Positions 420 through 31,078 of a stretch of DNA of 38,060 bases are shown here, one piece after another. Under the pieces are notes generated by a model, which saw nothing but the letters and a program-made list of their open reading frames with translations, made no database searches and had not been told where the DNA came from. A program made the translations under genes and the position numbers. Source of the stretch: Candidatus Omnitrophota bacterium. Lineage in GTDB: Bacteria; Omnitrophota; Gorgyraeia; Gygaellales; Profunditerraquicolaceae. The DNA lies in NCBI GenBank assembly GCA_028713155.1, contig JAQTPA010000012.1, positions 1 to 38,060 of the forward strand. Direction: 5' to 3'. Position 1 is the first letter of the stretch. The number at the start of each line of letters is the position of its first letter.

Positions 420-1319
420 TTAATGCTGGGCTGCATAACGAAAGGCAGATAAGCAGGCCTTGGCGCCTTCGCCTGCGGCGATGATAATCTGTTTCTCCGG
501 GACATCTGTGACATCGCCCGCGGCAAAGATTCCCGGGCTGTTTGTCTCATTACGGCTATTGACCTTTATTTCACCGCGGCTATTCTTTTCCACGCCTTTA
601 ACAAAATCCGCATTGGGGATAAGGCCGATCTCGACAAATACCCCCTCTACGGGAAGTATCTTTTCTTCTTCCCCATAATTTACTTTTACGGCATTCACCA
701 TTTCTCCTCCCAAAACAGCAGTAACTTCAGCATTATTCAGTATCTCGACATTACGCGCTTCTTCTATTTTCTGACGCATAAGCGCGTCCCCTCCGAGTTT
801 AGGTGTATTATTGATGATATAGGTATATTTTGCGATCTTTATCAGTTGCAGGGCCGCATCCAGGGCGGAGTTACCTCCTCCGATGATTGCCACATTTTTA
901 GCGCTAAAGAGCGGTCCGTCACAAGTTGCGCAATAACTGATACCTTTGTTTTTATATTCTTTCTCTCCCGGGACACCGAGTTCCCTTGAGCGTTTACCGG
1001 AAGCAACAATTACCGCCTTAGCCTGGTAACTGGCTTTATCGGTTTTAACCAGTATAACCTCCCCCGCCCTGGTTACTTCAATTACCTCCTCGCCTCCTTT
1101 AACACTGGTATTGTAACTAAACATATGCTCTTCAAATTTCCCTACCAGGTCCGGACCGGTAATAAATTGATAACCGGTATAATTCCCGATATCGCCGCTC
1201 CAGGCAGTCTGACCCCCGATATCACCGGTCACAACCAAAAAATCCATCTTTTTACGCGCTGCGTATACGCTGGCGGTAATCCCCGCAGGCCCTGCGCCGA
1301 CAATGATCAAATCATACAT
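420..1319 (-). CDS. trxB: Thioredoxin reductase (FAD/NAD(P)H)
   Basis: GAGPAGITASVYAARK, SYCATCDGPLF redox CxxC, GGGNSALDAAL, GIFAAGDVTD motifs. Confidence 0.93.
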   Translation of the reverse strand: MYDLIIVGAGPAGITASVYAARKKMDFLVVTGDIGGQTAWSGDIGNYTGYQFITGPDLVGKFEEHMFSYNTSVKGGEEVIEVTRAGEVILVKTDKASYQAKAVIVASGKRSRELGVPGEKEYKNKGISYCATCDGPLFSAKNVAIIGGGNSALDAALQLIKIAKYTYIINNTPKLGGDALMRQKIEEARNVEILNNAEVTAVLGGEMVNAVKVNYGEEEKILPVEGVFVEIGLIPNADFVKGVEKNSRGEIKVNSRNETNSPGIFAAGDVTDVPEKQIIIAAGEGAKACLSAFRYAAQH

Positions 1320-1321
1320 AG

Positions 1322-1558
1322 TTATACTCCCAAGGACTGTTTGATTTTTTCCCGGTCAAAACCCACGATTATCTCGCCTTCAATGTCCAATACCGGCACA
1401 GCCATCTGTCCGGATTTTTTAACCATTTCATCGGCCTTGAGCCGGTCGGTGGCAACATCGTAATCTTCAAAAACGATATTATTATCTTTTAAAAACTGCT
1501 TGACCCTGATACACCACGGGCAGGTGGGCGTGCTGTAAATTTTTACGTTTTTAGCCAT
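1322..1558 (-). CDS. Glutaredoxin family protein (NrdH/Grx-like)
   Basis: YSTPTCPWCIRVKQFL CPWC motif, AVPVLDI cis-Pro motif. Confidence 0.9.
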   Translation of the reverse strand: MAKNVKIYSTPTCPWCIRVKQFLKDNNIVFEDYDVATDRLKADEMVKKSGQMAVPVLDIEGEIIVGFDREKIKQSLGV

Positions 1559-1569
1559 AGCAATCCTTT

Positions 1570-2046
1570 CTAAAGCAGCTTTTTAGTCTCAATAAGCTGT
1601 TTTAAATGACCCTCTTCCTGGACAATCAGGGTCTCTATTATCTTCACATCATAGTCGGGAACGATTTTCTTTAAACCTTCGTAAAAAACGACCGAGTCTT
1701 TCTCAAAACTGATGGCTTTTTCTATCGCCTCCTTATCGGTCTGAATAGCTTTGGCGATTTTTTCGCCTTCATCCTTCTGTGTAAATATATACTCCCTGGC
1801 TAGCGTATTCATATAAGCATAATATTCATCGGTATCCTGCCCTTGAGGCTCAAATTTCCGGGTTTTATCCAGTATGCCCTGAAATACCTTAATGTGTTTT
1901 TCTTCTTCACCCGTTAAGAACCTAAAAACCTCCCTAGCTTTCAATACTTTTGATTGCTCTGCCATCCGGTTATAGAAATCCCTGCCGTTTTTTTCGATCT
2001 GAATACCGAGTGCCACGACTTCGCTGCCCGCAAAAATGTTTCCCAT
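1570..2046 (-). CDS. Ferritin-like / rubrerythrin-fold protein (two EExxH repeats)
   Basis: EEEKHIKVF and QEEGHLKQL motifs, E in each preceding helix. Confidence 0.85.
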   Translation of the reverse strand: MGNIFAGSEVVALGIQIEKNGRDFYNRMAEQSKVLKAREVFRFLTGEEEKHIKVFQGILDKTRKFEPQGQDTDEYYAYMNTLAREYIFTQKDEGEKIAKAIQTDKEAIEKAISFEKDSVVFYEGLKKIVPDYDVKIIETLIVQEEGHLKQLIETKKLL

Positions 2047-2075: not shown

Positions 2076-2540
2076 CTACTTTAAATGCTGTGGCGTAAGG
2101 TCAATTACTCCTGACACTTCAACAATAATCATATGCTCGGGATCAGGGAGCAGGACCTCCGGATGCCGAAGGTGCCCTTTTACTTCACCGCGGATATTTT
2201 TAAGTAATCTCTGGGTCAGTCTCCCCGTAATTCTATCTTCCCAGGCCTGGATCGTCTCCGCATCAAGATCCGCTTTACCTAAAATCCTAGCCTTCCCCTT
2301 AAGGCAGTAACCGATGAATTTATGCTCATCAAAAGCAGTAATATTAACGCAAGGGTTGCTCTTGAGATTCTGCAAGGTTTGCCCTCTATAGGCATCCAAT
2401 AAGAAAATACTCCCCTTCTTATTGATTTTTACTATCCCCTTACAAGCACTGTGGGGAAAGCCCTCGCTGTCAATGCTGGAGACAATGACACAACCCTGTC
2501 TCTGGAAAAATTGGATAATGTCTTCGCTCAGCGGATGCAT
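2076..2540 (-). CDS. Pyridoxamine 5'-phosphate oxidase-family flavin-binding protein
   Basis: IVSSIDSEGFPHSACKGIVKI, LKSNPCVNITAFDEHKFIGYCLKGKARIL typical of the PNPOx-like split barrel. Confidence 0.8.
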   Translation of the reverse strand: MHPLSEDIIQFFQRQGCVIVSSIDSEGFPHSACKGIVKINKKGSIFLLDAYRGQTLQNLKSNPCVNITAFDEHKFIGYCLKGKARILGKADLDAETIQAWEDRITGRLTQRLLKNIRGEVKGHLRHPEVLLPDPEHMIIVEVSGVIDLTPQHLK

Positions 2541-2717
2541 CTAACTTTCCAGCTCCACGATCTTCTTTTCAATAAGCTGCTTATGCTTCTCTTCCTCGTT
2601 CATCAGGAAGGTAAAAATTTCTTTTGTCTGCGGGAACCGCGCAATAAAATTTTCGTAAAGATCCCTTGCTTCAATCTCTTTGCCTAACGCCAGTTCTAGA
2701 GCTTCTACCGGGCCCAT
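2541..2717 (-). CDS. Single-repeat (half) ferritin-like protein, 58 aa
   Basis: Absent from ORF track. Manual translation MGPVEALELALGKEIEARDLYENFIARFPQTKEIFTFLMNEEEKHKQLIEKKIVELES*; SD GGAGGT; TAATG overlap with upstream fprA. Confidence 0.85.
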   Translation of the reverse strand: MGPVEALELALGKEIEARDLYENFIARFPQTKEIFTFLMNEEEKHKQLIEKKIVELES

Positions 2718-3913
2718 TATTTACCTCCTTTTATTACTGCCGCAAAATTCCGGCCGAACTTAAAACAAGCCTCTAAATCGTTTTTATCGGGCATATACTT
2801 TACTTCCAATCCTGTTGCTGCCAATTCTATGCCGGCTTCTTTTAAAATATTTTCTATCTGTCGTACGGCCCCCCCTGCCCAGCCGTAAGAGCCGAAAGCA
2901 GCGGAAACCCTATTTCTTGGCTTAAACCCTCTTATAAAATCAAGAAAGCCGGCCAGGTTAGGAAGCATGTTGTTATCATGAGTTGACGAGCCAAAAATAA
3001 ATCCCCGGGCATCCAGCATTTCTTTAACTACCTCGGTACGGTCAGAGCCGGTTATCTCAAACAATTTTATGCTCAAACCCTCTTCTTCAACGCCCGCGAC
3101 AATTTTACGCGCCATCTTTTCGGTCGCGCCCCACATAGATTCATATGCTACTACCACTTTGGGCAGGGTTTCATTCTGCGCCCAGCTGGTATATCTATTC
3201 ACTATTTGCAGGGGGTCCTTACGCCAGATAACGCCGTGGCTGGGAGCAATGATTTTAAGCGGAATATTTAATTTTTTTACTTCTTCGATCTTCTTTAAAA
3301 TAACCGCGCCTAACGGCCAGAGTATATTACCGTAGTATTTGGCCGCTTCATCCCATAACGCGCACTGGTCAACCTCGTCGGCAAACCTCTCTTTGGTCGC
3401 CAGATGCTGACCGAAGGCGTCATTGGGCATAAGCAGTTCTTCTTCTGGGCAATAGGTAAACATGCTGTCCGGCCAATGAATCATCGGCGCCTCTAAAAAC
3501 GTTAATGTCCTCTTACCCAGCTTTAATTTATCCCCGGTCTTAACCACCTGAAAATCCCAATCCCCGTAGTAATAGCGATAAAGGCCTTCCTTACATTTCT
3601 CCGTACCTAAAATTTTTGCCTTAGGGCAGAGCTTCATAACTTCAGGGAGCGCTCCGGAGTGGTCTGTTTCCACGTGATTAGCGATGACGTAGTCTATTTT
3701 ATTGACCGGCACAACCTGCTGGATATTTTCAATCAGTTCCGAGGAAAACGCCCCGTACACTGTATCTACGAGAGTAATCTTTTCATCAATAATCAGATAG
3801 GCGTTATAAGTTGTGCCCCGTTTTGTAGTATAGGTATGACCGTGAAAATTACGCACGTTCCAGTCCACCACGCCGACAGAATAAATATCCGGTAATATTT
3901 TTAAAACTGACAT
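2717..3913 (-). CDS. fprA: Flavodiiron protein (FprA / NO or O2 reductase): metallo-beta-lactamase plus flavodoxin domains
   Basis: NHVETDHSGALPE diiron motif; VVAYESMWGATEKMARKI FMN-binding flavodoxin motif. Confidence 0.95.
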   Translation of the reverse strand: MSVLKILPDIYSVGVVDWNVRNFHGHTYTTKRGTTYNAYLIIDEKITLVDTVYGAFSSELIENIQQVVPVNKIDYVIANHVETDHSGALPEVMKLCPKAKILGTEKCKEGLYRYYYGDWDFQVVKTGDKLKLGKRTLTFLEAPMIHWPDSMFTYCPEEELLMPNDAFGQHLATKERFADEVDQCALWDEAAKYYGNILWPLGAVILKKIEEVKKLNIPLKIIAPSHGVIWRKDPLQIVNRYTSWAQNETLPKVVVAYESMWGATEKMARKIVAGVEEEGLSIKLFEITGSDRTEVVKEMLDARGFIFGSSTHDNNMLPNLAGFLDFIRGFKPRNRVSAAFGSYGWAGGAVRQIENILKEAGIELAATGLEVKYMPDKNDLEACFKFGRNFAAVIKGGK

Positions 3914-3941: not shown

Positions 3942-4646
3942 CTAGTATCCTTGAAAGTTTTCGGTAACTATATTTTCTTTAGCTAAGTTCAGATCTTCCG
4001 TCAATATTTTATTCATTGCCTCCACCATCTGCGGAGGGCCGCAGAGGTAAAATTTTCTTCGCGGGTAATTTCCTACTTCCTGCTTAATCACCTGGGCATT
4101 AATCCGGCCGGAGATACATTGGAAACCTGCCGCTGGTTTGCCAAGCACATGGACTACTTTTAATTTAGGATAAGCCTTCTGCATCACTTCAAAATCTTCC
4201 TTGAATATAATATCTTTTAGCGAATGGTTGGCATAAACCAAAACCATATCCGTGCCTAAATTCTTATCTACGGTATATTTGGCAATACTTCTGATGGGAG
4301 TAATACCGATGCCTCCGGATAAAAACGCTATATCCGTTCCCGGTCCATCCAGAGTGAATTTACCGAATGGATATTCAATCTTAAGGCTATCCCCGGGATT
4401 TAACTGGCTAAGCGCTTTTGAAAAATCGCTGTTGGTAAGTTTTTTGGTAAACTCCACGTAGCCTTGCTCCGTGGGCGAGCTGGATATGGAAAGATACCTT
4501 TTTAAAACAGGGTCGCCCGCAAGGGTTACCGAAAGAAACTGGCCGGCTTTAAAATCTATTTTTCCGCCGATATCCAGCCGCACGCTTTTAACGTTATAGG
4601 CCCTTTGGATAATTTCCTTAACTCTTGCGGTTAACTCCTGCGCCAT
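3942..4646 (-). CDS. FAD/NAD(P)-binding ferredoxin reductase-like oxidoreductase
   Basis: RYLSISSSP, LSGGIGITPIRSI, YLCGPPQMVEAM motifs of the FNR superfamily. Confidence 0.9.
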   Translation of the reverse strand: MAQELTARVKEIIQRAYNVKSVRLDIGGKIDFKAGQFLSVTLAGDPVLKRYLSISSSPTEQGYVEFTKKLTNSDFSKALSQLNPGDSLKIEYPFGKFTLDGPGTDIAFLSGGIGITPIRSIAKYTVDKNLGTDMVLVYANHSLKDIIFKEDFEVMQKAYPKLKVVHVLGKPAAGFQCISGRINAQVIKQEVGNYPRRKFYLCGPPQMVEAMNKILTEDLNLAKENIVTENFQGY

Positions 4647-4805
4647 TTAAATCTTCTCAAACATATCTTTACCTACGCCACACTCAGGGCAGACCCAATC
4701 ATCAGGCAGCTTTTCAAAAGGTGTCCCCGCCGGAATCCCTCCCGCAGAATCACCTTTGGCCGGATCATAAATATACCCGCATACCGTACATCTATACTTA
4801 TCCAT
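4647..4805 (-). CDS. Rubredoxin, 52 aa
   Basis: Absent from ORF track. Manual translation [52 protein letters not shown]; two CxxC(G) knuckles; stop abuts next ATG. Confidence 0.96.
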
Positions 4806-4819
4806 CCGGATCTCCTTTC

Positions 4820-5134
4820 TTAACGCTGCTTTTCTGAACCCTGCATCATTGGAGGCATCGGCATACCAGGTGCCTGTTCTCTATTCATAAGAGCGCGCCT
4901 TCCCTTCATCATCCCCATCATCGGGCATCTAGAAAAACCCCTGGTGGCGCCAGAAGCATAGATACCTGAAGAAAACACTAAAAGCGCGCTGAGCCAAAGC
5001 AAAATAACAACAACCACCCCAAAAAGCTTTAACCTTCCCGATCCCATCTTTTGTAAACTAATTAAAACAAAAAAACTTATAGTTAGTAATACCGTCGCAG
5101 GTATCAAAGCAAAACAAAATCCCAATCCACCCAT
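4820..5134 (-). CDS. Small two-TM membrane protein with Met-rich C-terminal tail
   Basis: Two hydrophobic segments then [38 protein letters not shown] before ATG. Confidence 0.75.
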
Positions 5135-5557: not shown

Positions 5558-5956
5558 TTATTCCAGTAAAGATTCTAGAGTAATAGAATTAAGCTCTCTT
5601 AAAACATACCTCTCAATCCCGGTAATCTTTTTTCTTAAAAGGCAGGTTTTTTTATGCGGGCAGGCAAGTTTCCGTAAAAAACATTCATTCAGCCTCAATG
5701 CGCCCTGGAATATCCGCATTATATCCGTTATAAATATTTTTGCCGGCTCTTTAGCCAAAGTGAACCCGCCACCCTGGCCCCTGAGAGACCTGAGTATGCC
5801 TTTCCCGTTCAATACCTGAAGTATTTTTCTCAAAAATGGCTGCGGAACGCGTAATTTCAGGGTTAATTCTGAAACAGAAACTATCTTTCCTTTGCATTTA
5901 GCAATGAGACATAACGCTCTCAGGGCGTAATCCGTATTCCTGGTGATTAATTTCAT
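5558..5956 (-). CDS. Rrf2 family regulator with predicted Fe-S Cys cluster
   Basis: MKLITRNTDYALRALCLIAKCKG..., LRGQGGGFTLAKEP, NECFLRKLACPHKKTC (CX7CX5C). Confidence 0.92.
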   Translation of the reverse strand: MKLITRNTDYALRALCLIAKCKGKIVSVSELTLKLRVPQPFLRKILQVLNGKGILRSLRGQGGGFTLAKEPAKIFITDIMRIFQGALRLNECFLRKLACPHKKTCLLRKKITGIERYVLRELNSITLESLLE

Positions 5957-30172: not shown

Positions 30173-30436
30173 ATGCCTAGACGCAGAACTTCAGTCAAGA
30201 AAACGCGCGCAGATAAAAAGAAACACCTGCAAAATCTAAAGATAAAACAACAGCTTAAAAAATCAATCAAGCAATTCCATGGCCTGCTTACCGCCAAGAA
30301 CATTGCTGAAGCTAAAAAATTCCTGGCTCAGGTATTTTCCCAATTGGATAAAGCAGCGAAAAAAAGAACGATCCACCCTGCAACCGCTAACCGTAAAAAA
30401 TCCCGGCTAATGAAACGGCTGGGCAAGGGCGCATAG
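30173..30436 (+). CDS. rpsT: 30S ribosomal protein S20 (start at MPRRRTSVKK)
   Basis: SD AAGGAG before ATG 30173; Lys-rich helical S20-like, IHPATANRKKSRLMKRL. Confidence 0.93.
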   Translation: MPRRRTSVKKTRADKKKHLQNLKIKQQLKKSIKQFHGLLTAKNIAEAKKFLAQVFSQLDKAAKKRTIHPATANRKKSRLMKRLGKGA

Positions 30437-31078
30437 CCTAACGATCAACTTTTCCAAAGCAAAAACGGGCCTGAGCTTGCCCGTTTTTATTTCAATATCG
30501 CACTCTAAAAGAAATCTAATCCTGCATTTGGTTTCCGGCGCGCTCAGGCGGCTGTTTTCTACCGCGTACCTTAATCCGCCTAATATCCTTTCCGGTTTTT
30601 CCCCGTCTTTCAAAAGCTGTCCTAACACCTTAAGCGCATTGCCGGCGCTGTGCTGCTCTATCATGCGGCTAAGATTAAAGGTATTCAACGCTAAAACCTC
30701 CTGGAAACGAAAGGTCTTGGCGTATTTATATATATTCCTTAAGAAGGCTTCTTTTTTACCCTGCTTTTCCATATCCAAAAGCAGCAATATATCTTTAGAC
30801 GCCTGCTTTGCCCAGCGCAGGATGAAATCATCTATGCCCGGGGCTAACTCCTGGGCATTCTTAATGACGATAATCCTTTTGGGCGATTTTACCGGAAGGG
30901 CTAAAAGTTTTTCCTGCAGCTCTTTAAGTTTTAATGTCTCGGCGTAAAGGATATCTAAATTAAAATGCTCTACGCTTTTGGGGAGGAATTCTTCTCGGAT
31001 TTGTTTTAAACGGGTATCTTTAGAACTAAGCGGAGTGTCTGGGGATTTTAAGTCCTGGCCGATAAATAAATAAACCAT
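30407..31078 (-). CDS. holA: DNA polymerase III subunit delta (HolA)-like
   Basis: VYLFIGQD, KRIIVIKNAQEL, GQLLKDGEKPERILGGLRYAVEN; short divergent version. Confidence 0.75.
   Translation of the reverse strand: MVYLFIGQDLKSPDTPLSSKDTRLKQIREEFLPKSVEHFNLDILYAETLKLKELQEKLLALPVKSPKRIIVIKNAQELAPGIDDFILRWAKQASKDILLLLDMEKQGKKEAFLRNIYKYAKTFRFQEVLALNTFNLSRMIEQHSAGNALKVLGQLLKDGEKPERILGGLRYAVENSRLSAPETKCRIRFLLECDIEIKTGKLRPVFALEKLIVRLCALAQPFH
30461..30488 (+). terminator. rpsT terminator embedded in antisense holA coding sequence
   Basis: Perfect 10 bp stem aaaaacgggc/gcccgttttt, 8 nt loop, T5 plus atttc. Confidence 0.85.

Follow-up and report, generated by a model that had tools for sequence, protein, structure and literature searches.

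A 58-residue single-hairpin ferritin-like protein from Omnitrophota is probably a free-standing half-ferritin

We analyzed 38,060 nucleotides of DNA from a Candidatus Omnitrophota bacterium (contig JAQTPA010000012.1), here called the window. A gene of 58 codons in this window is genuine and under purifying selection, and it codes for a ferritin-like protein consisting of a single helical hairpin. The protein is probably a free-standing half-ferritin, i.e., two copies would form a homodimeric four-helix bundle whose single diiron site would serve in O2, peroxide or iron handling. A first-pass annotation had already located the open reading frame at 2541–2717; we confirm it there and place it on the minus strand, which that annotation did not give. 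The gene lies within a cluster of redox genes, listed here in their minus-strand order and followed by the smaller features of the 58-aa gene:

5558..5956, minus: Rrf2-family regulator, 132 aa, upstream of the cluster (TIGR00738 over cut-off)
4820-5134, minus: ORF of 104 aa, hydrophobic toward its N-terminus and Met-rich in its tail, lying between the genes of the Rrf2 regulator and rubredoxin
4647..4805, minus: rubredoxin, 52 aa (PF00301; NF045768 over cut-off)
3942..4646, minus: FAD/NAD oxidoreductase (PF00970, PF00175)
2717..3913, minus: flavodiiron protein (FDP), 398 aa, with metallo-beta-lactamase-like ODP domain and flavodoxin (PF19583, PF00258)
2541..2717, minus: 58-aa single-hairpin ferritin-like gene, ATG to TAG, 58 codons, intact; peptide exactly as quoted in the first-pass annotation
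2076..2540, minus: pyridoxamine-5'-phosphate-oxidase-like (PNPOx-like) flavin protein, 154 aa (PF01243)
1570..2046, minus: 158-aa two-hairpin (duplicated) ferritin-like protein (PF02915, 37.4 bits, profile positions 1-133 of 137)
1322..1558, minus: glutaredoxin-like protein, 78 aa (PF00462)
420..1319, minus: thioredoxin-reductase-like flavoprotein, 299 aa (PF07992)
2724-2728, minus: Shine-Dalgarno GGAGG of the 58-aa gene, within the 3' end of the FDP gene (read from the sequence)
2715..2719, minus: TAATG overlap, one base common to the FDP stop and the ATG of the 58-aa gene (read from the sequence)
within the 58-aa protein: predicted diiron ligands E14, E42 and H45, second-sphere residue or ligand Y21 and small residue A17 (from residue conservation)

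The GGAGG motif is spaced 6 nt from the ATG, and the TAG of the 58-aa gene directly abuts the ATG of the PNPOx-like gene. Translational coupling to the FDP gene, as named in the first-pass annotation, is a putative reading of this gene arrangement. A gene of this size readily escapes detection where ORFs are filtered by length, and its product fits no NCBIfam model. An NCBIfam search with the 104-aa ORF found nothing significant. Judged by family content, the cluster is one of oxygen/redox defence, in which the FAD/NAD oxidoreductase, from its neighbourhood, is the probable reductase of the rubredoxin/FDP chain.

We searched for the family with a profile built from a 22-sequence alignment (A1). 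Among short frames at E <= 3e-15, stand-alone orthologues were found in 48 of 384 sampled Omnitrophota genomes, and orthologues were also seen in relatives by tblastn and in named Omnitrophota genomes. The survey covers Omnitrophota almost exclusively, from MAG data; a scan of the genome collection, with segments of the window as queries, reached close relatives only. Phage, plasmid and viral-contig sequences that we searched held no homologues of the 58-aa protein. The nearest relative of the gene differs by six synonymous and zero non-synonymous changes. Compared with the nearest relative having amino-acid changes, dN/dS was about 0.05, and substitutions were biased toward third positions. 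In our analysis set of 53 distinct short sequences, L7, A10, E14, Y21, L38, E42 and H45 are invariant; position 41 shows some variation, with E in 47/53. All members have near-constant length and end within a few residues of one common point. A chance ORF or remnant is ruled out by dN/dS and conservation, i.e., the 48/384 genomes and the seven invariant positions. The first-pass annotation had described a living protein and named absence or disruption in relatives as the sign of a frameshifted remnant; selection and conservation speak for the former, and every copy that we found is intact. The same-genus genome G001 has neither the gene nor a remnant of it; there FDP directly precedes the PNPOx-like gene, so the 58-aa gene is dispensable.

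Profile and structure comparisons place the protein among the ferritin-like proteins. PF02915 (Rubrerythrin) matched it with 24.5 bits, above the curated Pfam gathering cut-off of 22.8, and 21 of 22 aligned orthologues matched at E <= 0.01. The match covers profile positions 1–56 of 137, i.e., one hairpin only. AF2, supplied with the A1 alignment, predicted a hairpin with helices 3–27 and 29–57 at a mean pLDDT of 98.1, which agrees with the helix pair read in the first-pass annotation. Foldseek searches of the PDB returned M. xanthus EncB as the best match (TM up to 0.90, probability 1.00), followed by Rhodospirillum rubrum EncFtn; E-values were weak (0.2), which a query of 58 residues would lead one to expect. 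A profile search of the PDB found TM1526, bacterioferritin and, with E 5.5e-4, the EncFtn-type chain 5n5e of P. furiosus; further down came designed DF-type diiron bundles (E 0.03).

E14 and E42 are found at the helix midpoints and at equal height about the turn at residue 28 (14 + 42 = 2 x 28), so a twofold dimer would unite both ligand sets. When the core direction was fitted from the hydrophobicity of the other residues, E14 lay at +1 degrees, E42 at +23 and H45 at -27. The hydrophobic moments of the two helices were modestly above those of shuffled sequences (p 0.05 and 0.03). In rubrerythrin, the second hairpin carries an extra Glu at +3. The corresponding position 17 after the helix-1 Glu is Ala (34) or Ser (19) in 53/53 members of our family, so the extra Glu is absent and the site would comprise four Glu and two His, as in EncFtn and bacterioferritin and unlike rubrerythrin. 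The single E...ExxH set noted in the first-pass annotation is E14, E42 and H45, present in 53/53 members, and the partner that it was said to need would be a second copy of the chain.

We propose that two 58-aa copies would pair antiparallel about a twofold axis to give the four-helix bundle. E14, E42 and H45 of both chains would hold a symmetric iron pair at its centre. Y21 would lie next to this site, and residue 17, which is small in every member, would make room for O2, H2O2 or Fe(II). Such a site may react with O2 or peroxide, either oxidising Fe(II) or drawing electrons from the rubredoxin/flavin reductase of the cluster. The protein would then serve as a small ferroxidase or peroxidase alongside the O2/NO-reducing FDP. 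We infer the homodimer, its bound iron, the substrate and the electron donor, with metal binding read from the residues, and regard homodimeric diiron chemistry as likely.

The gene order could also mean that the 58-aa protein is no stand-alone enzyme but a small subunit accessory to FDP, or its iron donor, which is made in step with FDP, binds it, and loads or protects its diiron centre. An FDP gene is found within about 5 kb in 17 loci; in 13 it is directly upstream, usually within 22 nt, and in most FDP-linked loci the short gene's start overlaps or closely trails the FDP stop. Moreover, the two co-occur at the genome level, with FDP in 40/48 carrier genomes versus 141/336 non-carriers (Fisher p 5e-8, a value that ignores shared ancestry). 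Against an accessory role, a whole supported clade of 29 members (97/87) has no FDP nearby, and all FDP-linked loci fall outside that clade. Eight of 48 carriers lack FDP at E <= 1e-80, 141 of 181 FDP genomes lack the 58-aa gene, and the same-genus genome has the operon minus this gene. FDP linkage is hence common and not obligatory; an obligate FDP subunit is disfavoured by the FDP-free loci and carriers and by the operon without the gene, and we regard an accessory role as unlikely. Further neighbouring genes code for ferritin, rubrerythrin, a VIT1/ferritin-like protein (L072), rubredoxin and thioredoxin. Housekeeping genes also occur, often beside members of the 29-member clade, e.g., a purF-like gene and DNA polymerase III genes. 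Since this clade is away from FDP and often by housekeeping genes, O2 defence is not necessarily the function in every member. In several relatives, the rubredoxin/FDP cluster adjoins a gene for a thiol peroxidase fused to a pterin-4a-carbinolamine dehydratase domain (283-aa frame, 2218-3066, plus strand, in L036 and related loci).

The chain could, secondly, assemble beyond the dimer into a small EncFtn-like ring or cage for iron storage or mineralisation that needs no encapsulin shell. EncFtn is a metal-dependent decamer (PMC5012862), and the 58-aa hairpin matches EncB and EncFtn chains. However, the 58-aa protein has no counterpart of the third helix that contributes to the other dimer interface of EncFtn. 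Encapsulin (PF04454) was found neither in its own genome nor, over the Pfam cut-off, in any of 46 carrier genomes (0/46), in searches that detected the positive controls; this also rules out that the protein is encapsulin cargo. We consider a ring or cage quite improbable.

A heteromer with the 158-aa two-hairpin protein is very doubtful. The two genes share one cluster in several genomes, but the 158-aa protein already holds two complete ligand half-sets, and its gene is missing from several short-gene clusters (L035, L071, L109). Moreover, the two families form separate groups in a tree. This unrooted tree comprised 53 short sequences, 27 N-halves and 27 C-halves over 60 usable columns. In 90% of bootstrap trees, the short sequences grouped together and apart from both half sets; their group had an overall support of 83/61, and the single EncFtn row adjoining it is a long branch. 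A special kinship with the 158-aa protein is thus not supported. Its two halves do both match the 58-aa profile, as the alignment by eye in the first-pass annotation had indicated, but the closer likeness to the second half claimed there did not hold. In the window, the N-half scored 26.0 bits and the C-half 16.4 bits, and means were 23.1 and 13.7 bits over 42 sequences, some of them near-duplicates. Foldseek with a model of the 158-aa protein (four-sequence alignment) gave generic ferritin-like matches only. As the short sequences form their own group outside both halves, no recent truncation has taken place; truncation of the neighbouring 158-aa gene is ruled out by the tree and profile scores (60 columns, 83/61 support). 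The single hairpin possibly preserves the state from which hairpin duplication produced the four-helix ferritins. That the gene is a longer ferritin-like gene, truncated or in decay, might have been suggested by the match to only the first 56 of 137 PF02915 positions; this reading is already refuted for this lineage by purifying selection, 53 intact members of near-constant length and their own tree group, and has next to no probability.

Four-helix ferritins are thought to stem from the duplication of a hairpin. A literature search, with most subscription journals outside its reach, found no paper on free-standing single-hairpin ferritins; the sole characterised single-hairpin form that we found is the EncFtn type, which is enclosed by encapsulin shells and carries a further helix plus a tail. 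With a free-standing half-ferritin, a soluble, shell-free family of 58 residues and fixed ligand set, the duplication idea would become directly testable, i.e., by looking for a bare dimer, two irons and turnover. It is conceivable, and we put it tentatively at somewhat below even, that the protein is a natural shell-free single-hairpin diiron enzyme of <60 residues that works as a plain homodimer. No natural member of the ferritin-like superfamily would then be smaller; the protein would be the direct counterpart in nature of designed DF1 and possibly a pre-duplication state.

In EncFtn, two irons are held between Glu32, Glu62 and His65 (and Tyr39) of two chains; its sequence was termed a 'half-ferritin', and ferritins were proposed to derive by duplicating such an ancestor, so that the half-ferritin concept is already established (PMC5012862). 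E14, Y21 (+7), E42 and H45 (+3) of the 58-aa protein correspond to the ferroxidase-centre residues E32, Y39, E62 and H65 of R. rubrum EncFtn with identical within-helix spacing. Like EncFtn and EncB (PF22277, TIGR04535, NF058679), the protein is a two-helix half-ferritin, and its hairpin superposes on EncB with TM 0.90. A diiron site that likewise spans the dimer interface would follow from this likeness, and the protein may work in an EncFtn-like manner. In contrast to EncFtn, 28 instead of 30 residues lie between the ligand Glu, position 13 is mostly Lys where EncFtn has Glu31 of the calcium entry site, and the chain has neither a third helix nor a C-terminal shell-targeting tail, ending with helix 2 at 57–58 (AF2). 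PF22277 did not match the window protein at E <= 10, and TIGR04535/EncB models scored it far below cut-off. Among 22 members one matched TIGR04535 (E 9e-5), and none came near the EncFtn model cut-offs. As a positive control, PF22277 matched an 83-aa EncFtn-like protein of the same genome at E 4.7e-31. Sequence models, the lack of a tail and third helix, and the lack of a shell partner all set the 58-aa protein apart from EncFtn.

The gene of this 83-aa protein (L130 2431-2682, minus strand, i.e., G000:C22 about 30430-30681) stands, by eye, near genes for methyltransferase-like and MinD/Mrp-like ATPase proteins, NifX/NifB-like small proteins and a Fur-like regulator. The assembly has no encapsulin, and the 83-aa protein has no evident shell-targeting tail. 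Within the 58-aa family, a subgroup (L111, L112, L113 and L115, in G088:C79, G241:C79, G398:C11 and G243:C29) has a turn two residues longer and thus 30 residues between ligands, as in EncFtn; three of these loci lie near DNA polymerase III gamma/tau-type genes. Other single-hairpin ferritin-like frames of Omnitrophota fall outside the 53-member family (L117, 84 aa; L118, 78 aa; L121, 74 aa), and several independent half-ferritin lineages may exist in this group.

With rubrerythrin and the two-hairpin ferritin-like diiron proteins (PF02915, e.g., TM1526, 1VJX), the 58-aa protein shares the PF02915 match, and both halves of these proteins match the 58-aa profile. Unlike rubrerythrin, it is one hairpin, has no rubredoxin domain (PF21349 unmatched) and forms no single-chain four-helix bundle. 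Several members show weak likeness (best E 1e-5) to the MbfA-type iron exporter (NF045676), where a ferritin-like domain is fused to VIT1; the 58-aa protein, in contrast, has no membrane domain and scored 14 bits against a cut-off of 450.

The designed DF1/DF2 hairpin dimers (PDB 1EC5, 1JM0, 1LT1, 1Y47, 1MFT) are likewise hairpins of about 50 residues. DF1 residues E10, Y17, D35, E36 and H39, in a sequence identical to 1EC5, line up with E14, Y21, E41, E42 and H45 of the 58-aa protein. DF1 L13 corresponds to the natural Ala/Ser17, and the variants DF1-L13A and DF1-L13G have been deposited. DF1 is designed and has 26 residues between ligands, unlike the 28 of the natural family. A direct pairwise comparison of DF1 with the 58-aa protein was not significant; the likeness is therefore one of analogy, i.e., shared design rules, and not of homology. 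The 58-aa family is a minimal, shell-free, new form of half-ferritin and, by this analogy, a natural parallel to the designed diiron hairpin DF1, from which protein designers gain a natural reference.
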